A stretch of DNA of 64,000 nucleotides. Origin: Bradyrhizobium liaoningense. GTDB lineage: Bacteria > Pseudomonadota > Alphaproteobacteria > Rhizobiales > Xanthobacteraceae. The stretch is from positions 1 through 64,000 of the forward strand of contig NZ_JAFCJM010000006.1 of the NCBI RefSeq assembly GCF_018130955.1, written 5' to 3'. Both the position numbers and the translations under genes were made by a program. Under the pieces are notes generated by a model. That model was not told the DNA's origin. It ran no database searches and saw only the letters and a list, made by a program, of their open reading frames with translations. This document shows, piece by piece, positions 7,215-33,767 of the stretch; position 1 is the stretch's first letter, and each line of letters begins with the position of its first letter.

Positions 7215-7239
7215 GCGGGCATCAAGACAGGACAGGCAC

Positions 7240-8127
7240 ATGGACGTATCAGCGATCGATGAACGCAAGGCGCGTGCGCACGCCTGGTTCGAGCGGCTGC
7301 GCGACGACATCTGCGCAAGCCTCGAGCGGCTCGAGGACGACGCACCGGCCGCGCTCTATCCGAGCGAGGCTGGCCGTTTCGTGCGCACGCCCTGGCAGCG
7401 CACCGACCACAGCGGTGCGCCCGGCGGCGGCGGCCTGATGTCGATCATGCAAGGCCGCCTGTTCGAGAAGGTCGGCGTGCACTGCTCGACCGTGCATGGC
7501 GAGTTCGCGCCGGAATTTCGCGCTCAGATCCCGGGCGCATCCGAGGATCCGCGCTTCTGGGCCTCCGGCATCTCGCTGATCGCGCATCTGCGCAATCCGA
7601 ACGTGCCGGCCGTGCACATGAACACGCGCTTCGTCGTCACCACCAAAGCCTGGTTCGGCGGCGGCGCCGATCTCACTCCCGTGCTCGACCGCCGGCGCAC
7701 GCAGGACGATCCGGATACGCTCGCCTTCCACGCCGCGATGAAGGAGGTGTGCTCAGGGCCGAACGGCGTTGCCGACTACGACAAGTACAAGAACTGGTGC
7801 GATGAATATTTCTTCCTGCCGCACCGGAAAGAGGCGCGCGGCATCGGTGGCATCTTCTACGACTGGCAGGACTCCGGCGACTGGGAGGCCGATTTCGCCT
7901 TCACTCAGGACGTCGGCCGGGCCTTCTTGAAGATCTATCCAGAAATCGTGCGGCGCAATTTTACGGCGCCGTGGACCGAGGCCGATCGCGGGGAGCAGTT
8001 GATCCGCCGAGGACGCTACGTCGAGTTCAACCTGCTCTACGACCGCGGCACCATTTTCGGGCTCAAGACTGGCGGCAATGTGGATTCGATCCTGTCGTCG
8101 CTGCCGCCAGAGGTGAAGTGGCCGTGA
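7240..8127 (+). CDS. hemF: Oxygen-dependent coproporphyrinogen III oxidase
   Basis: The 295-aa product converts coproporphyrinogen III to protoporphyrinogen IX with O2 in haem synthesis, as a cytosolic dimer. Family signatures are clear: [38 protein letters not shown], the [18 protein letters not shown] segment and the [20 protein letters not shown] terminus with the conserved dimer-interface region. The ATG at 7240 gives the normal length. It may serve the same haem-demanding module as hemC and hemA further along, although 5 kb of debris separates them. Confidence 0.95.
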
Positions 8128-8835: not shown

Positions 8836-9546
8836 ATGCCAGAGGCCATCGTGGACAAAATGCAGGAGGCAATCTCGCGAGGCGCGCTGCTTAGCCGACA
8901 GCTCCTCGACGCTGCGCGACCGCGTCCCACGTCCATCGAGGGGGTTGTCGCAGGCGGTCGCCTTGCAGCGATAGCGGGTCCGCTTGATCGGGCGTTGCGT
9001 CCGGACATCGCGGTCCGCACCCAGATCGCCCCTGACTTATGGGCCTTCAATGCCGACCCGGAAGAGCTGTACTTCGCTTTGCTCAACCTCTGCCGAAACT
9101 CGGCCGATGCTATGCCGGACGGCGGCGTGATCACCGTCGCGGCGCGGAACGTCGAATCTTCCTCTAGCGCGGCACGGGAATTCGTCGAGATTATCGTCGC
9201 CGACGACGGGGTCGGCATGCCCGAGGAGGTCCTGTCGCAGGCGTTCACCCCTTACTTCACGACAAAGGCCGCCGGCAGCGGCACAGGCCTCGGACTCGCC
9301 CAGGTCCGGCGATTCGCCGAAGGGCGAGGCGGTGCGATCGGTATAGAGAGCGAGCGAGGTGCCGGCACGCTGGTGCGCCTCTTTCTCCCGCGCGTCGCCG
9401 ATGCGGCGGTACAGAGCAGTATCGTCGGCACGGAGATCGCGTGCGCGCCGTCACTCAACGGCAGAATATTCCACGTCGTCAACACGGCGTCGGGCTGCGC
9501 CGATGTCGTAGCGGGCGCGAGCGCCTGGAGACCGGTTCAGCGATGA
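8836..9546 (+). CDS. Histidine kinase fragment: ATP-binding domain without the H-box
   Basis: A 236-aa protein with the last dimerisation helix (EAISRGALLSRQLLDAAR) and a full HATPase domain: N-box LLNLCRNSADAMPDGG, G1 box DDGVGMP, F-box FTPYFTTK and G2 box GSGTGLGLAQV. The helix that should carry the phospho-accepting histidine is missing, and no receiver follows. The start at 8836 has an AAGGTGAG site. The last bases overlap the start of the DsbA-NhaA gene (ATGA). It cannot autophosphorylate by itself; it is a remnant, or acts in trans. Confidence 0.6.
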   Translation: MPEAIVDKMQEAISRGALLSRQLLDAARPRPTSIEGVVAGGRLAAIAGPLDRALRPDIAVRTQIAPDLWAFNADPEELYFALLNLCRNSADAMPDGGVITVAARNVESSSSAAREFVEIIVADDGVGMPEEVLSQAFTPYFTTKAAGSGTGLGLAQVRRFAEGRGGAIGIESERGAGTLVRLFLPRVADAAVQSSIVGTEIACAPSLNGRIFHVVNTASGCADVVAGASAWRPVQR

Positions 9547-11411
9547 AGCTCATGATCCCGCCCGGCCGCCTCGACCGTCCGGTCGACCACGAGAAGGACC
9601 ACGTGCTCGGCCCCGCCGCCGCCGAGATCACGCTCGTCGAATACGGCAGCTACGCGTGCCAGCACTGCAGGGCTGCCAACGAGCGCATTGCGCAAGCGCG
9701 CGACCAACTCGGCGACCGCGTCTGCTACGCCTTCCGCCATAGGCCGCTCACGGACAACAGCCTTTCGTTTCGGGCCGCCGAGCTCGCCGAGCTTGCCCAG
9801 ACGCCCGAAGCGTTCTGGTCCGCGCACATCAAGCTGATGACGAGGTCGATGCAGCTCACAGAGGCCGACCTCTTCGCGGTGGCCGCCGACCTCGGCGTGA
9901 ACGCCGACTTTGTGCTCGGCGACAGCGACGCTATGCGGCGCGCGAGGGCGAGGGTGGAGGCGGACATCGCAAGCGCGCGCGCAAGCGGCGTGAGATTCAC
10001 GCCGACTTTCTACATCAACCGGCGGCGCTACGACGGGCCGTGGGATGAGAGCTCTCTCGTCGATGCGATGCTTGGCACGCTCGGCCACCGCGTCCGTACG
10101 GCAACCCTGGACTTCGCGAGCTGGGGCCCGTCCGCCGGCTTTTTGCTCGTCCTCGCGACCGTGGCGGCGATCGTCTTGACGAACTCGCCGATCAGCCCGG
10201 CCTTCGAGGCGCTCTGGCGCCAGGAGCTCGGCGTGAGCCTAGGCAATGCAATCTTTCGGATGTCCATCCTTCATTGGGTCAATGACGGCCTGCTGACGGT
10301 GTTCTTCCTCGTCGTGGGCTTGGAAGTGAAGCGCGAGATGACAGTTGGCCACCTCGCGAGCCGCCGCTCCGTCGCGCTTCCGCTTGCCGCTGCGCTCGGC
10401 GGCATGGTCGTGCCGGCGCTTCTGTATGCGCTGGTCATTCCTGCGGGGCCGTGGTCGCGCGGGTGGGGTATTCCGATGGCGACCGACACCGCGTTCGCGA
10501 TTGCCTTGATCGCCGTGATGGGCGTCCGAGTCCCCGTCGAGCTACGCATTTTCCTTACCGCAGCGGCCATCTTCGACGACATCGGTGCGATCGTCGTCGT
10601 CGCCGTGTTCTACTCTGGCGAGATCCATCCGGCCTATCTTGCCGCGGCCGCGGCTGTTGTGGTTGCGCTGGCGCTGCTGAGCCGATCGAAGGTCTACCTT
10701 CTCTCACCTTACCTCCTGTTGGGCGTCGCGTTGTGGGCTTTCGTCTACATGGGCGGCCTCCACGCTACGCTGGCCGGCGCGGTACTTGCGCTGTTCATTC
10801 CGACGCGGCCGCCCGCTGACTTGGCCGCCCTGATGACGCAAGCGAGCACCATCATCGCCTCCGAGGCCCGACATGAGGGCGAGGTGCTCAGGCACGGCCC
10901 CTCCACACCGGCACTGCACGCGCTCGATGCGATCTACGACAGACTTGAATCGCCCGCCGATCGGCTGCTACGGCGCGCCGGCGCGCGGTCGAGCTACGCG
11001 GTGCTTCCGATCTTCGCGCTGGCTAATGCGGACGTGACGATCGACCCGGGCGTCCTCGTTGGGCATGGCTGGCTGATGGCCGCGATCGTCGCCGGCCTCG
11101 CCATAGGAAAACCGCTCGGCGTCTTCCTCGCGGCCGCCGCGGCAGTGCGCGCGGGCATATGCGTCAAGCCGGCGGAGTACACGTGGCGGCAGTTGGCCGG
11201 GGCGGGAGCCCTCGCTGGCATTGGCTTCACGATGTCCCTCTTCATCGCCGGGCAGGCGTTTCCAAGCGCCACCGACTTCTCGGCCGCCAAGATCGCCGTG
11301 TTCGCCGCGTCGATTCTTTCGGCGGTCGTCGGGACTGCTCTGCTCTGGGGCGCTTCGCGCCAGGAGCTTTTCGAAGAGGCGCCGCAGAGCGCCGGCGTGC
11401 AAGTATCATAA
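9543..11411 (+). CDS. nhaA: DsbA-like thioredoxin domain fused to Na+/H+ antiporter NhaA
   Basis: A 622-aa fusion. Residues 1 to about 185 form a DsbA/thioredoxin-fold domain with a CQHC redox motif (YGSYACQHCRAANERI) and FTPTFYINRRRYDG carrying the cis-proline. From about residue 200 to the end it is NhaA with 11-12 membrane segments, including the transport-site aspartate pair (AAAIFDDIGAIVVVAVFY) and FLVVGLEVKREM near the start. NhaA imports protons for sodium export at alkaline pH in the inner membrane. Fusions of this kind are known in several bacterial groups. ATG 9543 gives the full redox domain. It overlaps the kinase fragment upstream by four bases. Confidence 0.9.
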   Translation: MKLMIPPGRLDRPVDHEKDHVLGPAAAEITLVEYGSYACQHCRAANERIAQARDQLGDRVCYAFRHRPLTDNSLSFRAAELAELAQTPEAFWSAHIKLMTRSMQLTEADLFAVAADLGVNADFVLGDSDAMRRARARVEADIASARASGVRFTPTFYINRRRYDGPWDESSLVDAMLGTLGHRVRTATLDFASWGPSAGFLLVLATVAAIVLTNSPISPAFEALWRQELGVSLGNAIFRMSILHWVNDGLLTVFFLVVGLEVKREMTVGHLASRRSVALPLAAALGGMVVPALLYALVIPAGPWSRGWGIPMATDTAFAIALIAVMGVRVPVELRIFLTAAAIFDDIGAIVVVAVFYSGEIHPAYLAAAAAVVVALALLSRSKVYLLSPYLLLGVALWAFVYMGGLHATLAGAVLALFIPTRPPADLAALMTQASTIIASEARHEGEVLRHGPSTPALHALDAIYDRLESPADRLLRRAGARSSYAVLPIFALANADVTIDPGVLVGHGWLMAAIVAGLAIGKPLGVFLAAAAAVRAGICVKPAEYTWRQLAGAGALAGIGFTMSLFIAGQAFPSATDFSAAKIAVFAASILSAVVGTALLWGASRQELFEEAPQSAGVQVS

Positions 11412-11457
11412 CCGGCTGGCGCGGAGCTATGCCCGACCGTGAACTGGAGGTTTTCCG

Positions 11458-13196: not shown

Positions 13197-14132
13197 TCAG
13201 ATTGGCCTTTGCTCTTCCACGGTACGGCGCGCAGCCTTCAATATCTCCTCCGCACCTTGCTGAAGAAGTTTGTGCCCGAGACTTCTGCCTATTGCATCGG
13301 CTTGATCGGCCAGACCTACGCTTTCATCGGCAATCTTCGTTTGGCCGTCCGGATGAGTCACCTGTCCTCGAAGTGTTAATGTGCCGGCGAGCCATGTGGC
13401 AGAGACCCCGACGGGTAGGCTGCAACCCGCATCGAGACTTCTCATTAATGCGCGCTCTGCATCCACTTCGGCGCGCGATTGCCGATCTTCAATCTCTTGA
13501 AGCAGCGCTATGAGCGCCGTATCCTCTTCGCGAGCTTCGACCGCGAGAGCCCCTTGGCCGACTGCGTACGGGAAAACATGCGCGTCTAAAATCTGTGAGG
13601 CCTCATGCAGCAACCCTAGCCGGGACAAGCCCGCCGCTGCCAATAGAGTCGCGTCTATTCCCTCTCGGTTCTTTGCCTTACGCAGCCTTGGAGAAACGTT
13701 CCCTCGGATGGGTCGAATATCCAGACCATTGCATAGAGCGAGAAGTTGAGCCTTGCGACGAATTGATCCAGTGCCGACGCGCAGCCCCGGTCGTAGCTGA
13801 TCTAGTGTAACTCCGCAAATCGCGTCGCGAGGATCCCCTCTTTTGGGAACGGCTGCCAATACCAAACCGGGCTGCAATTTTGTCGGAAGATCTTTGAGGG
13901 AATGAACGACCAGGTCAACTTCGTTGCGTAGAAGCGTGTCTTCACTCTCGTTCGTGAATGCACCGATGCCGCCAATCTGCTGAAACCCCGACCGTCGATC
14001 TTTATCGCCAACCGAACTAATCAAGACCGTTCGTACCTCAGCGGCCGGTTCGACGCTACGAATAAGATCGGCGACGTGATTGGCTTGCCAGCGGGCCAAA
14101 TCACTTCGCCTGGTACCGACCCGAATTTCCAC
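13197..14132 (-). CDS. hemC: Hydroxymethylbilane synthase (porphobilinogen deaminase)
   Basis: The 311-aa enzyme polymerises four porphobilinogens to hydroxymethylbilane, on the route to haem. Motifs: RVGTRRSDLARWQ at the N-terminus, DLVVHSLKDLPT, GTGSIRRKAQL (usually GTSSLRR), and RSLDAGCSLPVGV with the cysteine that binds the dipyrromethane cofactor. The GTG at 14132 has AGAGG about 8 bases upstream and gives the normal length. A reading frame resembling the end of hemB stops 2 bases upstream, as expected for a hemB-hemC operon. The altered GTGSIRR and a divergent sequence suggest an accessory copy. Confidence 0.92.
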   Translation of the reverse strand: MEIRVGTRRSDLARWQANHVADLIRSVEPAAEVRTVLISSVGDKDRRSGFQQIGGIGAFTNESEDTLLRNEVDLVVHSLKDLPTKLQPGLVLAAVPKRGDPRDAICGVTLDQLRPGLRVGTGSIRRKAQLLALCNGLDIRPIRGNVSPRLRKAKNREGIDATLLAAAGLSRLGLLHEASQILDAHVFPYAVGQGALAVEAREEDTALIALLQEIEDRQSRAEVDAERALMRSLDAGCSLPVGVSATWLAGTLTLRGQVTHPDGQTKIADESVGLADQADAIGRSLGHKLLQQGAEEILKAARRTVEEQRPI

Positions 14133-14134
14133 GA

Positions 14135-14308
14135 TCAAACCTCTTGCTTCTTGAGTGGTTCGCCGACTTCTGGTGCTGCGCAAGTAGCTATAAAATCGGC
14201 ACCTGCTCGTTTAGCTGCACGGCAGAACTCCGGTGCGGTAGTCTTTGCATGAGCATCTTCCCTCGGATCATATTTCATCAATTCACTGTCGTCCGAAACG
14301 GAGAAGTA
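14135..14308 (-). pseudogene. hemB: Possible delta-aminolevulinic acid dehydratase C-terminal fragment
   Basis: The frame ending at 14135 contains PISYFSVSDDSELMKY and then FCRAAKRAGADFIATCAAPE. The second part fits the last helix-strand of HemB (usually ...IRRAGADxILTYxA), and the first resembles the VAAYxVSGEY segment. The active-site lysines and metal site are not present nearby. The stop abuts the hemC start, as in a coupled operon. The assignment rests on weak similarity plus context. Confidence 0.4.
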
Positions 14309-14668: not shown

Positions 14669-15124
14669 CTATTTGAATGGATGCATTGACGTGGAATAGG
14701 TTGGTGTTTTCGCGTAATCCGCTGGAACGTTCCAAAGCGTTGCGACATACCAGGCGGTCCAAGCAACGATCAGCAGGCTCAGCACCCACACCCAAACGGG
14801 GATCGGCGAGGGCGATTCGGCCCGGTGCGGCTCGAACGGCTCTTCGGCTCCAAACGCGTTGACCATGAAGCGCAGCGTACCGTGAACGACCGCCCCATCG
14901 CCAAGCCCGCTGACCGTGATCCCGGGGCCGTTACGGACCTGGAATCGAAGGCGTCGGACGCCGACCTGGCCGGTGGCGTCCTGGGCCTCGATGCGGAGGC
15001 CGTGCTCGCCGTCGGCAAGTCTCTTGGTGTCGAGCGCTATCTCTGTCGGTGGCCGCTGATCGGTGACGGGATCGGGCGCTTCGTCGAGGTAGATGCGGAT
15101 GCGCGGGTCGGACACGTGTTGCAT
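14669..15124 (-). CDS. Accessory membrane subunit with Ig-like domain, last gene of the oxidase operon
   Basis: A 151-aa protein. Residues about 5-85 look like a beta-sandwich (IRIYLDEAPDP, LADGEHGLRIEAQDATGQVG, RNGPGITVSGL). A single strong membrane segment follows (IPVWVWVLSLLIVAWTAWYV), then a short tail with PADYAKTPTY. The ATG at 15124 sits directly behind the TAG of the upstream gene. The position, fourth after a ccoN-like and a tri-haem c gene, suggests a small accessory or assembly subunit, but I know no named family. Confidence 0.65.
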   Translation of the reverse strand: MQHVSDPRIRIYLDEAPDPVTDQRPPTEIALDTKRLADGEHGLRIEAQDATGQVGVRRLRFQVRNGPGITVSGLGDGAVVHGTLRFMVNAFGAEEPFEPHRAESPSPIPVWVWVLSLLIVAWTAWYVATLWNVPADYAKTPTYSTSMHPFK

Positions 15125-15128
15125 TCCT

Positions 15129-15374
15129 CTACCGGTCGGCATGCAGGACGCGATATTTTGGATGATTGGCATCCCGTTCGCCGGGGTCGATGAGCATCCA
15201 CAGCGCCGCCACGATGCAGCTGAGGGTCACGAGCCCAGCCCCGCCCGCCACCAGCACGTTGCCGAGAAGTGGGCCGGCAAGACTATGATCGCCGGCGCCA
15301 CCAGCGGTCGCAGGCGCAGTGCACAGGTAGCCAAGCGCCGAGAGTATCCAGGCGGTAATCGTATCGGTCATCAT
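15129..15374 (-). CDS. Small membrane protein of the oxidase operon, 81 aa
   Basis: Two hydrophobic segments are visible (about residues 4-20 and 38-65, the latter LVAGGAGLVTLSCIVAALWMLIDPGE), with a short soluble tail DANHPKYRVLHADR. It begins 6 bp after the tri-haem c gene and ends 4 bp before the next start, so it is translated from the same message. Size and placement are like CcoQ/FixQ, but the sequence is not similar to known CcoQ. Confidence 0.65.
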   Translation of the reverse strand: MMTDTITAWILSALGYLCTAPATAGGAGDHSLAGPLLGNVLVAGGAGLVTLSCIVAALWMLIDPGERDANHPKYRVLHADR

Positions 15375-15380
15375 CGCCTC

Positions 15381-16709
15381 CTATTTGTTGGCGCGGAGCT
15401 TCGTGATGTCGGCGGGCGTCACCAACGGCCCTTGGTTACCCCATGAAGTTCGCTCGTGATTGATGATATCGGCTATCTGCTGATCAGAGAGTCTGTCGGC
15501 GAACGGCGGCATCTCTACCTCGTACTTCTGGCCGTTGATCGCCTTGCCACTAAGCCCGCGCAGCACGGTGGTGATGTGTTCGGCAGGGTCAGTGGCATTA
15601 ACGACCTGATCGCCCGCAAGTGGCGGAAATGTGCCCGGCACGCCCTTACCCTCGGCGCCGTGACAGGCGGCGCAGTTGTCGGCAAAGAGCTTCGATCCTT
15701 CCGCGGCATCGAAACTCGGTGCAGGGGCCGCTACCGGCGAGACCTGTTCCGGCGACGTTGCCTGCTTCTGCAGTGGTTCGTTGGCTCGGGCCGCGACGAC
15801 ATCAGCCGCGCTGATCAAGGCACCACGATTGCCCCACGAGGAGCGCTCGTGGTTGATGATATCGGCGATCTGCTGATCAGCCAATTGATCGGCGAACGCT
15901 GGCATCTGCGCTTCATATTTTTGACCGTTGATCACCTTTCCGCTAAGTCCGTGCAGCACCGCGCCAATGTGAGCCGTGGGATTTGCGGCGTTAACCATGG
16001 GATCTCCGGCGAGCGGCGGAAACGTTCCCGGCACACCCTTGCCTTCCGCGCCGTGGCAGGATGCGCAGTTGTCGGCGAACAATGCTGCGCCCTTGGTGGC
16101 ATCAAACCCTAGGGGTTCGCTCGAAGGACCCAAAGGCGCGGCGCCGGACTGCGTCGGAACGAGCGCGGGCTGCTTCAGCGACAACAGATAGGCCGCCAGC
16201 GCCTTGCCGTCGTCGTTGGGGACGACGACACCGCCTGGCGCGAACTGCGGCGGCAATGGCACCGCTTTCTCTCCGGGAGGTAATTTGTCCACAACCCTGA
16301 ACAGCCAGGGAAAGGCCGGCATGATTGATTGCGGCACCACTGCGCGCGGCTGATAGAGATGGATGTACTGCCATATGCTGCTCGATTGCCGCGTGCCGAT
16401 ATTGCTCAGGTCGGGACCGGTGCGCTCCGAACCCAGCAATTCAGTGGTCTGGTAGGCATAATCGCCCGGCGCAGACGGACGGCCAAAGGGTTTATCTCCG
16501 GAGAGCGGACGTACTTGCTGGGTATGGCAATAGAAGCAGCCTTCCGAGACATAGACATCACGGCCTCGCGCCTCAAGTGGCGTGAGTGGCTTAAGGCCCG
16601 GCGTCGGAGGTACCTTCGATAGCCAGATCCCCGGCAGCACGCCCATAAGAATCGCTAATCCAGCGTAGATCAGCGTTGAACCGCCAGAAATTGCCAATGA
16701 CCTGTTCAT
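15381..16709 (-). CDS. CcoO-like membrane cytochrome c fused to two CcoP-like c domains (tri-haem)
   Basis: A 442-aa subunit. Residues 1-30 form a membrane anchor. Residues 45-180 are CcoO-like, with haem motif CFYCH (58-62), TGPDLSNIG and the axial-methionine segment SIMPAFPWLF (Met130). Two nearly identical class-I cytochrome c domains follow, with CASCH (215-219) and CAACH (346-350) and methionines in QMPAFAD and EMPPFAD. Classic cbb3 oxidases encode mono-haem CcoO and di-haem CcoP separately; no ccoP gene is present here, so this fusion probably replaces both. The ATG overlaps the ccoN-like stop (ATGA). It would pass electrons from soluble cytochromes to the catalytic subunit in the periplasm. 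Confidence 0.85.
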   Translation of the reverse strand: MNRSLAISGGSTLIYAGLAILMGVLPGIWLSKVPPTPGLKPLTPLEARGRDVYVSEGCFYCHTQQVRPLSGDKPFGRPSAPGDYAYQTTELLGSERTGPDLSNIGTRQSSSIWQYIHLYQPRAVVPQSIMPAFPWLFRVVDKLPPGEKAVPLPPQFAPGGVVVPNDDGKALAAYLLSLKQPALVPTQSGAAPLGPSSEPLGFDATKGAALFADNCASCHGAEGKGVPGTFPPLAGDPMVNAANPTAHIGAVLHGLSGKVINGQKYEAQMPAFADQLADQQIADIINHERSSWGNRGALISAADVVAARANEPLQKQATSPEQVSPVAAPAPSFDAAEGSKLFADNCAACHGAEGKGVPGTFPPLAGDQVVNATDPAEHITTVLRGLSGKAINGQKYEVEMPPFADRLSDQQIADIINHERTSWGNQGPLVTPADITKLRANK

Positions 16710-18103
16710 GCCGACACCGTCTTGGCTGCGGCAAGCTCGGCGTAGGACCTACCGTAGGTCATTGTCCAGACGTTGAAAGCGAAGACGAGATGGCCGGCGA
16801 ACATCAGCGAGCCGCCGACGGAACGCCACAACCAATATGGCGCGGCATCTTCGACCGACTGGATAAAGGTGAGTCCTCGAAACCAATCGAGCCCCTGAAT
16901 GGTGCCGGCGGCCGACAGCGCCGCAACGTAGATGACAACACCGACGGCAGACAGCCAGAAATGGATGCCCATGGCCAGGTTGTAGGGATACTTGCCGGTG
17001 GCGCGCGGCAACAGCGCATAGATCCCGCCCCAGATCGCGAAGGTGACGAAGCCATACATCGTCAGGTGCGAGTGCCCTACGGTGTAATTGGTCAGATGCC
17101 AGAGCTGCTGCAGCGAGCGGAATGCCTCGAGTGTGCCTTGCGTTGAACCCAGTAGATAGCCGTAAACGCCGACTAGGATGAACATCGCGGGCGAGCGATA
17201 TATCCATTCGTGAGTCCCCCGGAAGGTGAGAAGGAAGTTCGCGGTGCCGCTCAGCACCGGAACCAGCATGGCCACGCTGAAGACGATGGCCGTAGTCTGC
17301 AGCCACCATGGTAGTGGACTGAATTCAAAATGATGAGCGCCGATGATCGGATAGAAGATGAGATTGGTCCAGAATGCAAAGACGCCGAGAGAATACGAAT
17401 AGATCGGACGGTTCAGGAGCTTCGGCAGCGCATAGTAGGACACACCAAGCGATAGGGGTGTGAACCATAGTCCGACAGCGTTATGCATGAAGAAGGCCTG
17501 TACCGCGACCTGGCCCAGTCCGAACTGGTACCACGGCAGCATCGACACCACGACCATGACAATCGTCCACAGCGTGCCCCCGATAGTATACCAGTTGGAA
17601 ATATAGATATGCTCGCCTTCCCGGTGCTCGACAGTGGCGATCATATTCAAGACCGCGGTGATCAAGCCAAGTCCAAGGATTACGCGAATCCACCACAGCC
17701 ATTCGCGATACTCCTGGCCGTAGGTGAAGCCGAGATCGAGTGTGACCGTGCCCAGTACCGCGGCGAGATTAAGGAGTGCAAGGCTGATCCATGCGAGGCG
17801 CTCGCTGTAGAGCCTCGCGCCGGAACTACGCGCGGCGACGAACAGCGCAAGCCCGATCAGCGCCTGGCTCGCCCACGCATAAAATGTTCCGCTGGTGTGA
17901 ATCGCACGCAACCGTCCGAACGACAGCGCCGGCGTGGTCGCGAAATCGGGATAGGCGAATTTGAAGCTGACTAGGAGTCCCACGGCTGTGCTGAATACGA
18001 GCCAGATTGCCGCCGACGCCACGTAAGCGGCGAACACCCGCGCCAGAACGCGGTCATCCGGAGCGCCTGTGCGAAGTGGAATGGCCGCAGCGCTGTCTGA
18101 CAT
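16706..18103 (-). CDS. Divergent C-family (cbb3-like) haem-copper oxidase catalytic subunit
   Basis: A 465-aa protein with about 12 membrane helices. Recognisable ligands: low-spin haem histidines His69 and His346, high-spin haem ligand His344 (TVGHSHLTMYGF), and CuB histidines His207 (FMHNAVG), His257 and His258 (GAHHFEF). Tyr251, in the place of the cross-linked active-site tyrosine of cbb3 oxidases, is present. The Glu that cbb3 enzymes keep before this helix (EGPMM) is Gln322 here (QGTLE). The second ATG (18103) is chosen for its better spacing from GAGAGG. It should reduce O2, or possibly NO, in the inner membrane. It heads the four-gene operon. Confidence 0.85.
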   Translation of the reverse strand: MSDSAAAIPLRTGAPDDRVLARVFAAYVASAAIWLVFSTAVGLLVSFKFAYPDFATTPALSFGRLRAIHTSGTFYAWASQALIGLALFVAARSSGARLYSERLAWISLALLNLAAVLGTVTLDLGFTYGQEYREWLWWIRVILGLGLITAVLNMIATVEHREGEHIYISNWYTIGGTLWTIVMVVVSMLPWYQFGLGQVAVQAFFMHNAVGLWFTPLSLGVSYYALPKLLNRPIYSYSLGVFAFWTNLIFYPIIGAHHFEFSPLPWWLQTTAIVFSVAMLVPVLSGTANFLLTFRGTHEWIYRSPAMFILVGVYGYLLGSTQGTLEAFRSLQQLWHLTNYTVGHSHLTMYGFVTFAIWGGIYALLPRATGKYPYNLAMGIHFWLSAVGVVIYVAALSAAGTIQGLDWFRGLTFIQSVEDAAPYWLWRSVGGSLMFAGHLVFAFNVWTMTYGRSYAELAAAKTVSA

Positions 18104-18656
18104 CATCCGCCTCTCCGTCTTCTCGGCGACGTTGTCCAGTTCGTTGCTTTGCACATCGAGCCTCCCGGCTTCACAATCTGGTATCGAGTCTGGGTGGCGA
18201 CACTGAAAGTTTTGGTACGACGATGTTTTCGAGAATGATCTTGCAACGCCGGCGACGGAAATCACCTCTGGCCATAGAGTCGATAGACGATCGTTATTGC
18301 CGCCGCCGCGTGACGCTGTAGCGAGGAATGCCACCAGCCGAACCTGCGGAGATTTCGTTGACGCCCTTGGACCAATCGAGGTTCCGGCGTGCGTCGCGCG
18401 GGCGGGGCGGCGAGTGGGGGCGGTCCGCGATTGAAGCAGGCCAAGTCCGGCATGCCGGTCCGCGACGTCGCCGGGGCGTATGACTCAGTGGCGAAGACTT
18501 CCGCCGCTTCTTCGGTTGTGAGCACGACGGAACGAAGCTAACCGGCAGTTGCCTTTTGGCGAATGCCACCCAATCTCCGTGGCCGCGGCGACTCCCTCTT
18601 GCAGTCTGGGATGAAGAGTGCTGGACGCTCGGACACCGATTGGGGACCTCTGAGCA
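18104..18656. other. Intergenic region between the divergent oxidase and cytochrome b561 genes
   Basis: Apart from repeat copy D no gene is evident. I found no FixK/FNR-type TTGAT-N4-ATCAA box by eye, so the regulation of the oxidase operon is unclear. Confidence 0.4.
18245..18312 (-). repeat. Dispersed element, copy D, upstream of the oxidase operon
   Basis: Read on the reverse strand it is GGCAATAACGATCGTCTATC followed by GACTCTATGGCCAGAGGTGATTTCC, close to copy A. It lies 140-200 bases upstream of the ccoN-like start and points the same way, so it could contribute to its promoter region. The in-frame peptide ends AITIVYRLYGQR. Confidence 0.6.
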
Positions 18657-19319
18657 ATGGGTTTGTTATACGATAAAGTCGAGCGAGGCAGGCAATCGGC
18701 CAACCTGCCAAGCGCTCAAATCTCTGGCGACGCGTCGCCACCGTTCATCAACCGCCGCGGCGGGGCATCGGAGTTGATAATCGGTTTGCGCAGCACTTCC
18801 TCTCGCTACGGCGCCGGCGCTCAGACCCTCCATTGGCTGACCGTCGTGCTGGTTCTCGCCGCGTATGTGCTGAGTAGGGGCGACGGCTATTCGCTCTATT
18901 CCGCCGCCGCGGACGGACTCCGCAGGATTCACGAGACGCTCGGAGTGCTGGTCTTCATGGTCGTCGTGCTGCGGCTGCTATGGCGGCTGATCGACAGCGC
19001 GCCCGCGAAGCAGCGGACACCGCGATGGAGGGCGGCGGCCGCTAAACTCGTCCAGTTCGCGCTTTATGTGCTCCTCATCGCGATTCCAGCAACGGCGGTG
19101 CTCGGTACCTGGCTCGAGGGGATTCCCGTCACCCTTCCCGGATTCGACATCGCCCCCCAGATCGCGAAGGCGCATGGACTGGGGCAGCTGATCATGGAAA
19201 TACATACCACCCTCGGCAACGCTATCCTCTGGGTCGCCGGCGTGCATGCAGCCGCGGCCCTCTTCCACTACTTCTATCTGCGCGACGAAGTCTTTCAGTC
19301 GATGGCTCCGGGCTCGTGA
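18657..19319 (+). CDS. Cytochrome b561 family protein
   Basis: The core (about residues 45-220) has four membrane helices and the histidines expected to bind two b haems: QTLHWLTV, RRIHETLGV, KAHGLGQLIMEIHTTLGN and AGVHAAAALFHYF. Family members move electrons from the quinone pool or dehydrogenases, or scavenge superoxide. The ATG at 18657 gives a 40-residue N-terminal extension without homology; TTG starts at 18774 or 18786 (GGAG just upstream) would give the usual b561 beginning, RSTSSRYGAGAQTLHW. It is divergent from the oxidase operon and may feed the same chain. Confidence 0.85.
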   Translation: MGLLYDKVERGRQSANLPSAQISGDASPPFINRRGGASELIIGLRSTSSRYGAGAQTLHWLTVVLVLAAYVLSRGDGYSLYSAAADGLRRIHETLGVLVFMVVVLRLLWRLIDSAPAKQRTPRWRAAAAKLVQFALYVLLIAIPATAVLGTWLEGIPVTLPGFDIAPQIAKAHGLGQLIMEIHTTLGNAILWVAGVHAAAALFHYFYLRDEVFQSMAPGS

Positions 19320-19702
19320 ATGATTAGTCCTGTGCCCCCTTCGACATGCATTCTTGCGGGGACTACGGGACTGTACGCATCGCGTGCGAAGGGAGTTGCT
19401 CGCTGATTGCCACCAATGCAGATAGCCTCCGGACTCAGCCGACGACCTTCCGACAGATTGCTGGCGAGCCGCGTCGAGAGCACCGGCCGCGATGATTGTC
19501 TTATCATCTGCCTTTTCACGCGGTGGAGACCTCTGGCGTGGGCATCGAAACGATAACTGACGATAATTGGCTAAATCGTCTCCCGTGTGATGCAATACTC
19601 ATCGGCTTGCAGACGCCCTAATGGCACGGCCCTTCGTCGCGAGCCGCAGTCGGAAGTGAGCGAATTCCCTACCTGCAGGATGGCTTCGAGGAGATCGGAA
19701 AT
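19320..19702. other. Non-coding leader region of the ccm operon
   Basis: No ORF with coding character. It should contain the promoter of the forward ccm operon, but I can name no regulator site with confidence. Confidence 0.4.
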
Positions 19703-20476
19703 TTGAAGCTGAGCTTCACCCCCTACAGCAATCCCGGCAATTTCGTGCGTCTTGCCGCAAAGCTGGTGCCTTTGCTTTGGGGTTCGACAGCCTTCGCCTT
19801 CGCGCTTGGTCTATTTGGGACGTTCGTCGCGCCACCCGACTACCAGCAAGGCGAGACGGTGCGCATCATGTACGTCCACGTCCCAGCCGCCTGGATAGCG
19901 ATGCTTGCCTACACGTTCATGGCAGTGTCTGCGCTCGGATCCCTAGTTTGGCGTCATCCACTCGCCGATGCAACTCAAAAGGCGGCTGCGCCGCTGGGCG
20001 CAGCTTTCACTTTCATCTGCCTCGTCACAGGCTCCCTGTGGGGCAAACCCATGTGGGGCACATATTGGGTCTGGGACGCACGGCTCACCTCCATGTTGGT
20101 TCTGTTTCTCATCTATCTCGGTCTGATCGCGCTCTGGCAAACGATCGAGGACCCGAGTAGGGCGGCACGAGCGGTTTCGATCATGACCTTGGTAGGCTTC
20201 ATCAACATTCCGATCGTGAAGTTCTCGGTTGATTGGTGGAATACTCTCCACCAACCGGCTTCGGTTCTCCGGATGGAGGGTTCGGCGATTGCTGGCTCGA
20301 TGTTGTGGCCACTAATCGTCATGGCGCTCGCATACACGCTTCTGTTCGCAACCCTCCACGTAATGGCGGTCCGTAACGAGATCATGCGACGCCGAGTACG
20401 GCGGCTTGCGATCACGCTGGCGGCCGCGGGCGAACCCGCGATGGCTCGCATGCTGGTTGCCGAAGTAGCCTCCTGA
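19703..20476 (+). CDS. ccmC: Haem exporter protein CcmC
   Basis: The 257-aa membrane protein has six helices and the tryptophan-rich WWD motif (GKPMWGTYWVWDARLTS) flanked by haem-binding histidines in VHVPAAWIAM and NTLHQPASV. CcmC places haem on the periplasmic haem chaperone CcmE together with CcmD. A TTG start follows GAGGAG. First gene of ccmC-D-G-I-E-F-H. Confidence 0.95.
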   Translation: MKLSFTPYSNPGNFVRLAAKLVPLLWGSTAFAFALGLFGTFVAPPDYQQGETVRIMYVHVPAAWIAMLAYTFMAVSALGSLVWRHPLADATQKAAAPLGAAFTFICLVTGSLWGKPMWGTYWVWDARLTSMLVLFLIYLGLIALWQTIEDPSRAARAVSIMTLVGFINIPIVKFSVDWWNTLHQPASVLRMEGSAIAGSMLWPLIVMALAYTLLFATLHVMAVRNEIMRRRVRRLAITLAAAGEPAMARMLVAEVAS

Positions 20477-20486
20477 GCAGATCATC

Positions 20487-20639
20487 GTGCTGCATGGTGG
20501 ATTCATCACGGCGGCTTTTCTGGTGACGGGCACCATTTTGGCCGGGATGATCGCGGCGGTCCTCATCGACTATCGCGTTCAGCTCCGGAGCTTGCGACGC
20601 CTGCTACCTGATCACTCGGATCCGAACAAACGCGCATGA
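20487..20639 (+). CDS. ccmD: Haem exporter protein CcmD, 50 aa
   Basis: A very short gene with a GTG start. The protein begins MLHGGFITAAFLVTGTILAG with one membrane helix and ends in a basic cytoplasmic tail (DYRVQLRSLRRLLPD), as expected for CcmD, which releases holo-CcmE from CcmABC. It sits 10 bp after ccmC, and its TGA overlaps the ATG of ccmG (ATGA). Confidence 0.85.
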   Translation: MLHGGFITAAFLVTGTILAGMIAAVLIDYRVQLRSLRRLLPDHSDPNKRA

Positions 20640-21259
20640 GCAAAATTCCAGCCTCGATTCACCTCCCATCGAGCGCCGCGGCCCCTCGACGCGCGCTCGC
20701 CCGGCTGTGGGTGATTATCCCGCTTCTAGTCTTCTTCGGAATTGCGGCATTACTCTTGGTGCGGCTCGGCGCCGGAGACCCATCGCTCGTGCGCTCGGCC
20801 CTAATCGGCAAGCCAGCACCGCAGTTTGCGCTGGAGCCACTTGATGGGCTTTCGACGTCCGGTCCACCTGGCTTGTCGAGCGCGGATCTGCGGAGGGGAC
20901 ACGTGACCATCGTGAACGTCTTCGCGTCATGGTGTCTCGAGTGCCAGGAGGAGCAAGGGGCGCTGATGGCGTTGGCCAGCGACCGGACGTTGCAGCGACA
21001 GGGGGTGAAGCTTGCTGGCATCGTCTACAAGGACGTTCCCAGAAACGCGCTAGCCTATCTCGCCGCCAACGGGAACCCTTTTGCGCAGGTTGGCACTGAC
21101 CGGTCCGGCCGAACGGGGATCGATTTCGGGGTCTATGGTGTCCCCGAGACCTATGTGATCAAGGGCGATGGCACAATCGCCTACAAGCTGGTTGGTGGCA
21201 TCTCGGACGCAAGCCGACCTGGCTTGATGGCCGCAATTGCCGAGGCAGAACGTCCATGA
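20636..21259 (+). CDS. ccmG: Thiol:disulfide interchange protein CcmG/DsbE
   Basis: The 207-aa protein has a membrane anchor (residues about 28-45) and a periplasmic thioredoxin domain with VNVFASWCLECQEEQ and the cis-proline segment GVPETYVI. It keeps apocytochrome c cysteines reduced for haem attachment. The active site is CLEC; Pro is frequent at the third position in this family, so the Glu is somewhat unusual and may shift the redox potential. Confidence 0.93.
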   Translation: MSKIPASIHLPSSAAAPRRALARLWVIIPLLVFFGIAALLLVRLGAGDPSLVRSALIGKPAPQFALEPLDGLSTSGPPGLSSADLRRGHVTIVNVFASWCLECQEEQGALMALASDRTLQRQGVKLAGIVYKDVPRNALAYLAANGNPFAQVGTDRSGRTGIDFGVYGVPETYVIKGDGTIAYKLVGGISDASRPGLMAAIAEAERP

Positions 21260-21414
21260 CGACTGCCTTACAAGCTGCCCTACTTACATTATTCAGGAGT
21301 GAACGATCGGACCATGGAAGCGCACACCCAGAAGCAGTCCGATTTTCAAGAACAGCGGATGCCCGACAACGTGGTGCGTTGCGCAGTAGCGAAAACGGAC
21401 GGAGGCCTTGAAAC

Positions 21415-22113
21415 GTGCTGTGGGCCGTCTTTGCAATGATGACGTCCGCGGTCGTGCTGGCGCTGGCCCGGTCGCTCTCTGAGCGGTGCGAGAGCTTTGG
21501 CGCTCACGATTCCGACGTGGATTTCTATCGCGGCCTTCTGGCCGAGGCGGATGATGACGTCCGCCGCGGACTCGTAGCGCCCGAGGATGCCGTGGCGACG
21601 CGTGCCGAGATCGAACGCCGGCTGCTCGCGTCACTCGACTCGCCGTCGGAGAGCCGGCTGCGCGCGTCGCGGCGCTGGCAGCCGAGGCGCGCTGCTGCAG
21701 CCTTGGCGATCGTCCTAGTGCTGCCACTCGTCGCGCTCGCGTCATACCTCAAGGTTGGCGCTCCCAGCCAGCCTGACATGCCGATCGCATCGAGGCGCAC
21801 GGGTGGGGACGTCACCCTCGCTGCCGCCGTTCCTGACATCCACGCCGGCCACGCCCGGGCTGACATCGCAGCGCTTCCTCCGGAGCTGCGGAGCGACGCG
21901 ATCCGCGGGATGGTGGGAGGGCTCGCCGATAAGCTCGCGAAGAACGGCCATGACCTTCGGGGATGGCTGCAACTGATTAGGTCTTACGTCGTATTGGGTG
22001 AACGCCAGGAGGCCGAGGCGGCCGTCGCAAGCGCACGTGCCCAATTAGCAGGCGATGCGCAAGCTGCAGCGCGCATCGATGAACTCGTCAGGCAGCTTGG
22101 TTTGAAGGGGTAG
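21415..22113 (+). CDS. ccmI: Cytochrome c-type biogenesis protein CcmI (CycH)
   Basis: The 232-aa product has an N-terminal membrane helix, the FYRGLLAEADDDVRRGLVAPEDA segment typical of CcmI, a second helix (AALAIVLVLPLVALASYLKV) and a C-terminal TPR-like part with MVGGLADKL and GWLQLIRSYVVLGE. CcmI is the apocytochrome c chaperone of the haem-ligation complex. The start is GTG 21415. A 155-bp gap separates it from ccmG. Confidence 0.9.
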   Translation: MLWAVFAMMTSAVVLALARSLSERCESFGAHDSDVDFYRGLLAEADDDVRRGLVAPEDAVATRAEIERRLLASLDSPSESRLRASRRWQPRRAAAALAIVLVLPLVALASYLKVGAPSQPDMPIASRRTGGDVTLAAAVPDIHAGHARADIAALPPELRSDAIRGMVGGLADKLAKNGHDLRGWLQLIRSYVVLGERQEAEAAVASARAQLAGDAQAAARIDELVRQLGLKG

Positions 22114-22116
22114 ACG

Positions 22117-22569
22117 TTGACCAGAAAGGGCAGGCGCCTCGCTATCATCAGCGCAGCGGGCTTCACTTTAGCCATCGCAGCAGGGCTCATCCTGTTTGCG
22201 TTGCGTGATAGTATCGTCTTCTTCTACGGGCCGACCGAGATAGTCGAAAAAGCGCCGCCGCGAGGAACCCGTCTGCGCATCGGCGGCCTGGTGAAACCTG
22301 GCTCACTTACCTATGGTGGATCGTCGACTGTTGTCTTCGCAGTGACCGACCTGAAGCACGACATCAAGGTTAGCTACACTGGATTGCTGCCGGATCTCTT
22401 CCGTGAAGGACAGGGCGTCGTGGCCGAGGGCACGGTGGAGGGACCAGGCCTCTTTCAGGCTGATACCGTGCTCGCCAAACACGACGAGCGATACATACCC
22501 AAGGATGTAGCCGACAAACTTAAGCAACAAGGCACTTGGCGGAACGAAAGATCCGCGCGAGCGCAATAG
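22117..22569 (+). CDS. ccmE: Periplasmic haem chaperone CcmE
   Basis: A 150-aa protein with an N-terminal membrane anchor ([20 protein letters not shown]), a beta-barrel domain ([32 protein letters not shown]) and the haem-linking histidine in [13 protein letters not shown]. CcmE carries haem covalently from CcmC to CcmF. TTG start 3 bases after the ccmI stop. Confidence 0.95.
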
Positions 22570-22611
22570 CGCCGCCTTCCACGAAACATCACAACCGATG
22601 GGAGCGAAAGG

Positions 22612-24609
22612 ATGATCGTCGAAACCGGACACTACGCACTCGCTCTGGCTCTCGCCGTCGCGTTGCTTCAGTCAGTTCTGCCGCTCTGGGGGACCCGTAG
22701 TGGTGATTCTGGACTCGCTTCCATTGCGGTCCCGGCTGCAATCACTCAGTTCCTGTTGTTGGGTTATGCGTTCGCGGCACTGACTTACGCCCATGTGGTG
22801 TCCGACTTCAGTCTCCTGACAGTCGCCGAGAACTCGCTCACCACCAAACCACTTGTGTACAAAATCGCCGGCGTCTGGGGCAATCACGAAGGATCCATGC
22901 TGCTTTGGGTTCTGATCCTCGCGACATTCGGAGCGGCAGTGGCGATTCTCGGGCGCGGCATGACGAAGGAATTGCGCGCCGATACGCTAGCGGTCCAAGG
23001 CTGGATCTCCCTTGCTTTTCTCTGCTTCATCCTGTTCACCTCCGATCCCTTCGTGCGACGGTTTCCGGCACCTTTTGAAGGCCAGGACCTCAATCCGCTG
23101 CTTCAAGATCCGGGCCTCGCGATACACCCGCCGCTTCTTTACCTCGGTTATGTCGGTTCCTCGATCGTGTTCTCATTTGCGGTGGCGGCGCTGATCAGCG
23201 GCCGACTAGACGCCGCTTGGGCCCGTTACGTTCGGCCTTGGATACTGATTGCCTGGATATTTCTAACGCTTGGCATCGCCATGGGCTCGTACTGGGCCTA
23301 TTACACCCTAGGCTGGGGCGGGTTCTGGTTCTGGGATCCGGTCGAGAACGCGTCGCTCATGCCCTGGCTTGCGGGTACCGCGCTCGTGCATTCGGCTGCC
23401 GTCATGGAGAAACGCGAAGCCCTCAAGATCTGGACGCTGTTCCTGGCGATACTTACATTCTCACTATCACTGCTTGGCACATTCCTGGTGCGCTCGGGGG
23501 TGTTGACCTCCGTTCATTCCTTCGCCAGCGACCCGGCGCGCGGCGTCTTCATCCTGGTCATCCTGACCGTGTTCATTGGCGGTTCTCTCTCGCTTTATGC
23601 CTGGCGCGCACCTTCCCTGAGCCAGCGTGGTCTGTTCGCGCCCGTTTCACGCGAGAGCGCGCTCGCGGTCAACAACCTGCTGCTGACCACCTGCTGCGCT
23701 ACGGTCCTGACTGGCACGCTCTATCCGCTCGCGCTCGAGGCTCTGACCGGGGACAAGATCTCGGTCGGCGCACCATTTTTCAATTTGACGCTCGGTCCGC
23801 TGGTAGCGCTGATCGTTCTGCTGATTCCGCTTGGTCAGTCGCTCGCCTGGAAGCGTGGCGACCTGCTCGGTGCGGCGCAACGGGTGACGGTCGCGGCCTT
23901 GGGGGGCCTCGTCGTCGCCCTTGTGCTCGTTGCTATCATCCGAGGCGGCCCCGTCCTCGCCCCGGTCGGTCTCGGCCTCGCGCTCTACCTCATCGTCGGT
24001 TCGTTCGCCGATGTGGCGTCGCGTATCTGGGCACGTGGGCAGCCCGCTCGGGTGATGCTGGCCCGAGCGGTCGGGCTGCCGCGTTCCGCCTGGGGGGCGG
24101 CGATCGTTCACGCTGGCCTTGGCGTGACACTCATGGGCTTGGCGGCGACCGGTTGGGGCGTGGAGCGGATCGCGACTGTCAAGCTAGGCCAGGGGATCGA
24201 TCTCGGCCCCTATCAGGCCACCATCGAGAATCTTCGATCGCGACAGGGCCCGAACTATTCCGAAGTCCTGGCCCATACGGTCATCAGCCGAGGCGGCGCG
24301 GCCGTGGCCACCGTCGAGCCCGCCAAGCGTAGCTTTCCTGCACGACAGACCGCCGTCACCGAGGCAGGCATCGTGACGCTGGGTTTTGACCAGATCTACA
24401 TTTCGCTCGGAGACCAGCACCCGGATGGCTCAATCGATGCGCGCATGTTCTGGAAGCCGCTTGTGACAGCCATCTGGATCGGCGCCGTCATCATGGCGTT
24501 CGGAGGGATTGTGTCGTTGTCCGATAGACGCCTCAGAATCGGCTTTGCGCGCCGCGCAGCTCGCGTCCGCCCCGCCGCCACCCCCGCAGCGCCGCAGCCC
24601 GCCGAATGA
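22612..24609 (+). CDS. ccmF: Cytochrome c haem lyase subunit CcmF
   Basis: The 665-aa polytopic protein carries the WWD motif ([19 protein letters not shown]) and the [19 protein letters not shown] segment with haem-binding histidine. Conserved [18 protein letters not shown] follows. CcmF ligates haem from CcmE to apocytochrome c. A GAGCGAAAGG site precedes the ATG, and its last bases overlap ccmH. Confidence 0.96.
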
Positions 24610-25082
24610 CTTCGCTTTGTCGCATTATTCTGCTTTCGATCGTACTTGCAGGCCTCGCGCCCAGCTCGGCAAGGGCGGTGCAGCCAGACGAGGTTCTGCC
24701 CGACACGAAACTTGAGGCACGCGCGCGCGCTATTTCCGGCGGGCTGCGCTGCTTGGTCTGCCAAAACGAATCGATCGACGATTCGAAAGCAGAGCTCGCG
24801 CGGGATCTCCGACTGCTGGTGCGCGAACGACTTAAACTCGGCGAGAGCGACGAGCAGGTCCGCGCCTTTCTGGTAAAGCGCTATGGGAACTTTATCCTGC
24901 TGAAACCACCACTCAACTTGGAAACCGCCTTCCTCTGGGGAATGCCCGCTTTGATGCTCGCAGCGGGCGGCATCGCTCTCCTGTTCGGTTTGCGCCGCCT
25001 GCAGTCCACGCCGGCAGCGCCCTTAAGTCAAGCCGAGCGGGATCGGCTCGCGGCTCTGTTGGACACCGATACTCTGTTATAG
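24606..25082 (+). CDS. ccmH: Cytochrome c-type biogenesis protein CcmH (CycL)
   Basis: The 158-aa product has a signal peptide (residues 1-24), the redox motif [13 protein letters not shown] that handles apocytochrome thiols, and a C-terminal membrane helix ([20 protein letters not shown]). It overlaps ccmF by ATGA and ends the forward ccm operon. It faces ccmB, which converges from the other strand. Confidence 0.95.
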
Positions 25083-25179
25083 GCATTTCCTGAGGGTCAA
25101 GCCGCCTCAACTTCGGAGACGTACGGAGTCGTTCCACGGCAGCGACCCCCGAAGCATCTCTTTTCGCTGCATGCGCTCG

Positions 25180-25842
25180 TCATTCTCCCGCGCCGCGAAG
25201 TGCTGCGGCTGCGGCGATTGGGGCGAGGGCGATGGATGCGAGGCCGAGCGCGCTGAGGACCAGAAAGGGCGTCAGAAAGGGCACTGTGCCACTCTGCGCC
25301 GACGAGACACCGAAGATCAGCACCGGTACGGTTAGTGGCACGACCAGGATCGACAGCAAAAGACCGCCGCGCCGCAGCGTCACGGTTAGGGCTGCACCGA
25401 TTGCTCCTAGAAAGGTGAGAGCCGGCGTGCCAACCAACAACGTTGCTGCCACCGCCCTGAGCGCCGGGCCGTCCAAATCCAACATCAGGCCAAACAAAGG
25501 CGAGAGTACAACGAGCGGCAGCCCCGTGACAAACCAGTGGGCCACGCACTTCACCAGAACAATGAGTTCTAGGGGCGCCGGCGATAGCAACACCTGGTCC
25601 AGCGAACCGTCCTCGTGATCCGCCTGGAAGAGACGGTCAAGGCCCAATAGACTCGCGAGGAGCGCTGCTATCCATAGAATGGCTGGACCGATGCGCGACA
25701 GCAAGTGCAGGTCAGGTCCGATCGCGAAAGGTACGATCGTCACGAGACTGAGGAAGAAGACCAGGCCGAGAACCCCGCCTCCACCGATGCGGCGCGCCAG
25801 CATGAGGTCGCGAAGAAAAATGACAAGGAGAATACGGCTCAT
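25180..25842 (-). CDS. ccmB: Haem exporter permease CcmB
   Basis: The 220-aa membrane protein has six hydrophobic helices and the N-terminal RDLMLARRIGGGGVLGLVFF cap, with FQADHEDGSLDQVLLSP typical of CcmB. With CcmA it forms the ABC part of the haem-loading complex. It follows ccmA on the reverse strand after a 124-bp gap, longer than is normal for this pair. Confidence 0.93.
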   Translation of the reverse strand: MSRILLVIFLRDLMLARRIGGGGVLGLVFFLSLVTIVPFAIGPDLHLLSRIGPAILWIAALLASLLGLDRLFQADHEDGSLDQVLLSPAPLELIVLVKCVAHWFVTGLPLVVLSPLFGLMLDLDGPALRAVAATLLVGTPALTFLGAIGAALTVTLRRGGLLLSILVVPLTVPVLIFGVSSAQSGTVPFLTPFLVLSALGLASIALAPIAAAAALRGAGE

Positions 25843-25966
25843 GGCCTCCGTCCGGCGTCACTATCGCGTCGAGACCGCTCCGGAGAAATCGGCAGAGGGG
25901 CGAGACCTCTTCTCTCCCGACCTCGACGGCTACGGGGGTAAAGGTTGCACCCCAACGGCACGACCC

Positions 25967-28433: not shown

Positions 28434-28498
28434 CTCAATCACTCCTGACCGTAGCTCGACCATAGCTCATCACGCAGAGCACTTCGCACTCGTCTCAG

Positions 28499-33560: not shown

Positions 33561-33767
33561 AACTGACGCCGGCAATCCCTAGTCACTGCGCCGTGTTAGT
33601 TCGAGAGGACGTCATTCCGGGTGGGCATCAATTTCATGACCCTTTGTTTCTTTCGCACTAAGGCACCCACGATTAACCTAGTCTGTGCGTAGTCAATGAG
33701 ACCAACTGCGCACGAATGCTGGCATCGCTTCATTCGGCGACATACAGCTGGTCAGAGGAGAGCGATC

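Follow-up and report, generated by a model that had tools for sequence, protein, structure and literature searches.

A cbb3-like C-family operon with Gln at the Glu323 site and a tri-haem CcoO-like chain in Bradyrhizobium liaoningense

Introduction

What does a cbb3-like operon encode when it contains no ccoP gene and its catalytic subunit carries Gln at a position occupied by Glu in Pseudomonas stutzeri CcoN? The question is posed by four genes in a 64,000-nucleotide stretch (the window) of the soil bacterium Bradyrhizobium liaoningense (NZ_JAFCJM010000006.1, positions 1–64,000; genome of 8.29 Mb in 158 contigs), among them those for a ccoN-like catalytic subunit and a ccoO-like chain with three haem motifs. 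The operon is real, is uncommon in its genus and is a variant of the cbb3-like enzymes of the haem-copper C family, undescribed in the open PMC papers searched: no description of its lineage was recognised there, including in the portions consulted of PMC8780969, PMC8756737, PMC4584964, PMC13038864, PMC11257404, PMC6710368 and PMC7876108. According to a 2022 review, reports from the C family are confined to cbb3-type enzymes (PMC8780969), and PMC4584964 mentions a second CcoN clade, found in Sulfurimonas and Aquificales, one member of which has been shown to reduce O2. We consider it probable that the window operon encodes a four-subunit cytochrome c:O2 oxidoreductase from an uncharacterised C-family lineage. 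An initial annotation had proposed an uncharacterised oxidase or a nitric oxide (NO)-reducing subtype; an unusual C-family oxidase outside ordinary CcoN is indeed what emerges, and the NO-reducing half of the proposal fares less well, the active-site Tyr251 being kept.

Results and Discussion

Composition of the operon

Four close-set minus-strand genes make up the operon. The last two, for an 81-residue membrane protein and for a protein combining an immunoglobulin (Ig)-like stretch with one transmembrane (TM) helix (the Ig-TM protein), are further members that the initial annotation had overlooked; its coordinates, strand, lengths and 442-residue three-haem chain proved correct on re-reading. 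The genes and domains, by window position, are as follows.

16706–18103, minus strand: ccoN-like catalytic subunit (465 residues; Gln322 codon CAA at 17138–17140, Tyr251 codon at 17351–17353)
15381–16709, minus strand: ccoO-like tri-haem subunit (442 residues; four-base overlap with the ccoN-like stop)
15774–16109, minus strand: first added cytochrome c domain of the ccoO-like chain (residues 201–312)
15384–15719, minus strand: second added cytochrome c domain of the ccoO-like chain (residues 331–442; tandem duplicate)
15129–15374, minus strand: 81-residue single-helix membrane protein (AGGAGG just upstream)
14669–15124, minus strand: 151-residue haem-free Ig-TM protein (equivalent to the N-terminal portion of the third subunit, an Ig-TM-cytochrome c, of Eremiobacterota)

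In the ccoO-like chain a Met-Pro motif follows each CxxCH (residues 58, 215 and 346). No di-haem CcoP with a FixP_N anchor is encoded in the operon, in keeping with the earlier description of an oxidase without CcoP, and a possible counterpart of CcoQ, the 81-residue protein, has no Pfam or NCBIfam match (two counterparts likewise have no Pfam match). By eye, similar short genes are present in Eremiobacterota and, less clearly, in Chryseobacterium. The 81-residue protein also resembles CcoS/FixS by eye, an assignment that we rejected at a profile probability of 1–3% and after a FixS search of the own genome had found only the FixS of the fix region. The first Met of the Ig-TM gene (15124) comes directly after the stop of the 81-residue gene, in a frame open from 15172. 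Among the other Bradyrhizobium loci (L numbers are our locus handles) this Met recurs in L046/L168, L163, L165, L166 and L167, is Leu in L162 and L164 and is Lys in L045, and because it is not kept in every copy the placement of the start at 15124 is uncertain.

The catalytic subunit and the Glu/Gln site

In profile searches the ccoN-like protein matches the COX1 family at E 1.8e-73, and it matches five PDB CcoN chains at E 7e-61 to 5e-52, the top PDB sequence match being 9g6b. Its predicted model (pLDDT 86.5) compares with cbb3 CcoN at template-modelling scores of 0.87–0.90 (E 1e-23 to 7e-22; 29–30% identity) and more poorly with cNOR, at 0.79–0.85 (E about 2e-12); the C-family layout of His ligands and Tyr is present, and the closest fold match is cbb3. 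The ccoN equivalog model TIGR00780 gives 238 bits, below its cut-off of 583. Against PF02433 the ccoO-like portion reaches 123 bits (cut-off 29.6), and the full chain stays below the cut-offs of both the ccoO equivalog model (119 bits against 200.65) and the ccoP one (92 bits against 180).

Read from the DNA, the residues of interest are His207, Tyr251, His257, His258, Gln322, His344 and His346, to be set against His207, Tyr251, His257, His258, Glu323, His345 and His347 of P. stutzeri CcoN1 (the 3mk7 sequence). This comparison bears out the identical CuB-site and Tyr251 numbering that had been noted at the outset. Gln322 is aligned to Glu323, the window numbering being one lower past a one-residue gap, and the CAA codon that stands opposite this Glu confirms the substitution first annotated: Gln322 is a true replacement and no alignment slip.

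Residues were compared in an alignment of 128 rows (127 from the C family and one A-type oxidase, L139), from which L133, a short fragment, and L006 and L009, duplicates of the window gene, were left out, and in which a few duplicates, such as the pairs L010/L046 and L058/L150, remain. CuB ligands, haem ligands and the putative cross-link residue Tyr251 are invariant across all 127 C-family rows. Among the 90 rows with Gln, the K-channel-type residues are kept in 86 (Tyr237), 86 (Thr293) and 90 (Tyr316) rows.

Occupancy of the Glu323 site was counted by class over 125 rows, with L139, P. stutzeri and the window protein set aside; rows whose score to P. stutzeri CcoN exceeds their score to the window protein were called standard CcoN. 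All 32 standard rows have Glu. Gln is found in 18/18 rows of the window lineage, in 67/71 of a proteobacterial lineage and in 4/4 of an L013-like lineage, together 89 of the 93 rows of the three non-standard lineages, and is the usual residue in these lineages outside ordinary CcoN; the initial view of Gln as a special mark of the window enzyme accordingly had to be given up, the more so as four of the 71 proteobacterial rows carry Glu. These four (L099, L106, L110 and L114) are natural swaps in otherwise Gln-bearing relatives, useful for probing the site.

A careful 54-row tree resolves standard CcoN, window, proteobacterial Gln and L013-like groups, each split having 99–100% support; the standard rows form a group of their own (100/100), and the window subunit I falls outside it. 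The same four groups are returned by a quick 68-row tree with NorB as outgroup. Both trees, which held only 12–14 standard CcoN rows, warn of meeting long branches, and the root is not settled. Clustering inside ordinary CcoN, with Gln misaligned, was what the initial annotation had named as counting against a novel subtype; in both trees the window protein sits in a separate clade, and Gln is not misaligned. As judged from these sequences, the trees show at least three further lineages in the C family beside ordinary CcoN, and the 54-row tree requires at least three Glu/Gln changes.

Might the operon instead encode an ordinary cbb3 oxidase whose subunits have been rearranged and whose Gln322 is neutral? 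That 4/71 proteobacterial rows have Glu, with at least three changes on the tree, indicates that the site tolerates both residues, and the overall fold is that of cbb3. We nevertheless regard this explanation as unlikely in view of the four clades at 99–100% support, of which standard CcoN is one, the 238 bits against an equivalog cut-off of 583, and Glu in every one of the standard rows.

Two side observations concern these relatives. The L013-like lineage (L013, L014, L017 and L019) comes from the window's own taxonomic family and, besides Gln at the Glu323 site, has SHSH in place of GHSH at the haem ligands and His in place of Tyr237, and the CcoO of L013 and L017 is long and carries three haem motifs or more. 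In Marinobacter aromaticivorans (L104) two Gln-type subunits I, at 9730–11416 and 17951–19541, lie some 8 kb apart and come from different branches of the proteobacterial lineage.

Origin of the added haem domains

The two added haem domains of the ccoO-like chain are 72% identical to one another. They share 51–61% identity with ten Eremiobacterota third-subunit haem domains, 55–62% with the CcoO-borne domain of the FW021 bins, 37–48% with proteobacterial third-subunit domains and 28–37% with the FixP domains of the own genome (31–36% for the first added domain), this FixP being the only classical CcoP compared directly. A merger of CcoO with classical CcoP, as the chain had first been interpreted, was rejected on the figures for Eremiobacterota, the FW021 bins and this one FixP: the added domains match the third subunit of the lineage far better, and the Ig-TM remainder of that subunit is encoded two genes downstream.

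The Eremiobacterota operon, for example L052, encodes ccoN, a one-haem ccoO, a 60-residue membrane protein and a 287-residue third subunit in which one helix and a single haem domain accompany an Ig-like stretch that Pfam Big_13 matches weakly, and this third-subunit haem domain is present in 10/10 Eremiobacterota-type loci (L049–L057, L061). One added haem domain is carried by ccoO in Chryseobacterium, in four more relatives from that phylum (L176–L179) and in the FW021 bins; where the Ig-TM gene was read, at two Chryseobacterium loci and in both FW021 bins, it has no haem domain. Two added domains were seen only in the Bradyrhizobium copies of our sample. The Ig-TM parts are alignable throughout, with Glu103 and Pro109-Val110-Trp111 invariant in 12/12, and profile comparison (7 rows from 14 loci tried) relates the Ig-TM helix region to that of the proteobacterial third subunit at 95.6% probability. 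Because of the domain identities, the Ig-TM alignment and the helix-region match, the haem domain appears to have moved from the third subunit to subunit II and to have been doubled in Bradyrhizobium.

An equation of the Ig-TM helix with FixP_N, to which an E...P.P.W pattern shared with the own FixP might point, was rejected at a profile probability of 1.3% and Pfam E values of at least 0.021; non-significant FixP_N matches occur in 2/12 members of the family (best E 0.021) and none in the window protein. A structure search with the Ig-TM model (pLDDT 65.9) returned weak beta-sandwich and unrelated matches, none at E < 0.001. The C-terminal cytochrome domain of a copper nitrite reductase is a further match to the added domains (82 bits), and we take this to be a probable general likeness of such cytochrome domains.

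Proposed function

Tyr251, the K-channel-type residues and the cbb3-like model lead us to view the enzyme as a probable O2 reductase that receives its electrons from c-type cytochromes. Table A4 of PMC8756737 lists an active-site Tyr in O2 reductases and, in its place, Glu in cNOR and qNOR, Asn in sNOR, Gln in eNOR and Asp in gNOR, and on our reading this residue corresponds to the Tyr251 site. Tyr251 and most of the K-channel-type residues would thus favour O2 over NO as the substrate. In the mechanism that we propose, a periplasmic c-type cytochrome would donate electrons to the haem c domains at the C-terminus of the CcoO-like chain, from where they would pass by way of the CcoO haem c and low-spin haem b (His69/His346) to the high-spin haem (His344)/CuB (His207/257/258) site with Tyr251, at which O2 would be reduced. 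Protons would enter by a K-channel-like path (Tyr237, Thr293, Tyr316). The two small gene products are putative subunits, and the Ig-TM protein may stand in, without haem, for the membrane anchor of CcoP. With Gln322 for Glu323 an acid is lost, and a shifted haem b3 potential with unchanged substrate would be expected.

The alternative of an NO reductase with its origin inside the C family, or of an oxidase of that origin retained chiefly to detoxify NO, draws on the Glu-to-Gln change, which lies by the proximal haem ligand, and on NO-related-looking genes near the Chryseobacterium copies (by reading). C-family enzymes moreover reduce NO in vitro (PMC8780969). Set against this are the retention of Tyr251 and most K-channel-type residues, where PMC8756737 lists another residue for the NOR classes, and the cNOR that the genome already has (by reading), and we judge this alternative quite unlikely.

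Several points weigh against an O2-reducing enzyme of the kind proposed. No member of the lineage is known to have a measured activity. The meaning given to Gln322 depends on a hydrogen bond from Glu323 of P. stutzeri cbb3 to the proximal haem ligand, for which the open PMC papers searched gave no confirmation. Ser240, a K-channel position, is Gly in the window protein and 15 other rows (16/90 Gln rows), and the Ig-TM start codon is conserved in only part of the copies. As a possible Fnr/FixK/NnrR-type box, one TTG-N8-CAA lies upstream in the window and was not found in the other Bradyrhizobium copies, the upstream regions of which are poorly conserved; because no such box is conserved, a microaerobic role is unsupported by regulation. 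The SCO, ATPase and TsdA context described below belongs to the sister proteobacterial lineage, not to the window lineage, and the flavohaemoglobin-like and Rrf2-type neighbours in Chryseobacterium would fit NO stress. Finally, NO turnover is compatible with the residues because known cbb3 enzymes also reduce NO (PMC8780969).

Elsewhere in the own genome, fixN, fixO and di-haem fixP lie together (L005/L180) and a cNOR is found at L007 (all named from sequence). The initial annotation had named, as a second finding that would count against it, a separate ccoP nearby in the full genome completing a standard complex; a di-haem fixP does exist, but it belongs to a different complex. Because of these genes, neither O2 reduction nor NO reduction in the host would need to depend on the window operon. 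An argument that relatives rely on this enzyme as sole oxidase was dropped, at least three COX1-family matches being present in 16/16 genomes tested.

A bolder interpretation, which we hold possible but doubtful, is that of a distinct C-family enzyme class, marked by Gln at the proximal-ligand site and subunit-hopping haem domains, spread over Eremiobacterota, Bacteroidota and Proteobacteria, and having a haem b3 potential and O2/NO preference unlike those of cbb3. Were this so, the three-haem chain of the window would be a self-wired electron intake able to replace CcoP.

The natural Glu/Gln swaps at the site, which we presume to tune haem b3, and the natural experiment of a haem domain carried on subunit II instead of III and doubled make the roles of Glu323 and CcoP directly testable, and the database label 'cbb3-type subunit I' covers enzymes that may differ in oxygen affinity.

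Distribution

Among the best 80 of 561 relatives kept in a scan of named genomes, Bradyrhizobium copies are 94–98% identical to the window protein (B. nanningense 98%), followed by Candidatus Eremiobacterota and like bins, two of them from FW021, at 60–67%, Chryseobacterium at 42% and Proteobacteria at 36–41%. FW021_bin.48 (G149) falls, by phylum search, in the phylum of an Eremiobacter genome. At E ≤1e-75, matches occur in 18/118 genomes of the little-studied phylum of Eremiobacterota (one at only 36% identity), in 15/296 of the Chryseobacterium phylum (35–54% identity, some possibly outside the window lineage) and in 4/398 of Pseudomonadota, two of these four being the own genome and one congener. 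Within Bradyrhizobium, 8/195 sampled genomes, own included, match at E 1e-80, and the operon is a rare optional gene set in the genus. Window and Eremiobacterota copies group at 96/96 support, without Chryseobacterium, in the 54-row tree. Transfer between Eremiobacterota and Bradyrhizobium seems likely from these sequences, and we infer that it ran from the former to the latter.

A gene set so rare (8/195 genomes, own included), with poorly conserved upstream regions, could be cargo or in decay, without present function. The comparison took in L045, L046 and seven further stretches, nine other Bradyrhizobium loci that amount to eight distinct copies since L046 and L168 were counted once (both contigs 103,755 bases, with equal values). 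All four frames, two of them short, are stop-free in the aligned stretches, at 82–98% protein identity overall (94–98, 86–96, 82–98 and 89–94% for the four proteins in turn), which makes a set without present function highly improbable.

Genomic neighbourhood

One further gene stands divergent next to the operon, with a putative link to the oxidase.

18657–19319, plus strand: cytochrome b561-type membrane protein

A cytochrome b561 gene is near the operon in 8/9 of the other Bradyrhizobium loci (7/8 distinct), its frame being broken by a stop within the aligned part in four of these, and hemC and a DsbA-NhaA fusion are near it in 9/9 (8 distinct). In the window this fusion, of a DsbA-like domain to an NhaA-like antiporter, is read at 9441–11411, and hemF, hemC and hemA at 7060–8127, 13197–14183 and 27075–28463, hemC being confirmed by profile matches; with haem synthesis genes around the oxidase, the region has the look of an island supplying haem and cytochromes. 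At 19703–26599 lies a second set of cytochrome c maturation genes (ccmC, G, I, E, F and H with divergent B and A, by reading), and the genome has two CcmF matches; among the nine other loci, in stretches reaching about 7–11 kb either side of ccoN, the cluster was found only in L045. A cytochrome P460-like protein with one haem motif (by eye) is encoded at 33696–34406 and was not found in the examined stretches of the other copies.

Neighbours were clustered over 86 loci, 68 of them of the proteobacterial lineage, with simple gene calling and many loci short. Those 68 have an SCO-like gene in 20, a metal P-type ATPase-like gene in 20 and a SoxA/TsdA-like cytochrome gene in 10, each cluster being named from one representative; L047 and L048, from the window lineage, fall into the ATPase cluster as well. 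In Paraburkholderia aromaticivorans a molybdopterin oxidoreductase and a cytochrome c are close to the oxidase. This sister-lineage context would fit a copper oxidase that takes electrons from periplasmic cytochromes at the end of periplasmic oxidations. Around window-lineage copies only DUF488 stands out, in 8 of 115 neighbour proteins scanned, a subset of 171 after very large or doubtful frames were dropped. The DUF488 cluster (by reading) is near copies in three phyla (L049, L050, L054, L057–L060 and L087), and in Chryseobacterium (L058, 1901–3599) Rrf2-type and flavohaemoglobin-like genes are read nearby.

Comparison with known systems

eNOR, gNOR and cNOR are fellow members of the haem-copper superfamily, from which the window enzyme differs in keeping the active-site Tyr listed in PMC8756737; the Gln given there for eNOR (Table A4) is read as the residue of the Tyr site, not of the Glu323 site. 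With cbb3 CcoNOQP (P. stutzeri, 3mk7; Rhodobacter capsulatus, 6xkw; the own fixN, O and P) the window operon shares the subunit I fold, ligands and Tyr251, most K-channel-type residues and a CcoO-type haem c subunit. It departs from these enzymes in its 29–30% identity, its Gln for Glu323 and its separate clade; it also lacks a di-haem CcoP, bears two haem domains at the C-terminal end of CcoO and includes an Ig-TM gene. The cbb3-2 'NOH complex' of PDB 9g6b, presumably from P. stutzeri, has by its title a core of N, O and H, and its CcoN and CcoO both match the window proteins; its CcoN is an ordinary one with Glu, unlike Gln322 of the window. The sister proteobacterial lineage (P. aromaticivorans L039, Azoarcus KH32C L041) has Gln at the Glu323 site in 67/71 rows, and a TM-anchored third subunit homologous to the window's in both helix region (95.6%) and haem domain (37–48%). 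This lineage, at 36–41% identity, keeps its haem on the third subunit and showed no Ig domain, and its subunit I has a FixS-like helix fused on at the N-terminal end (93.6% probability).

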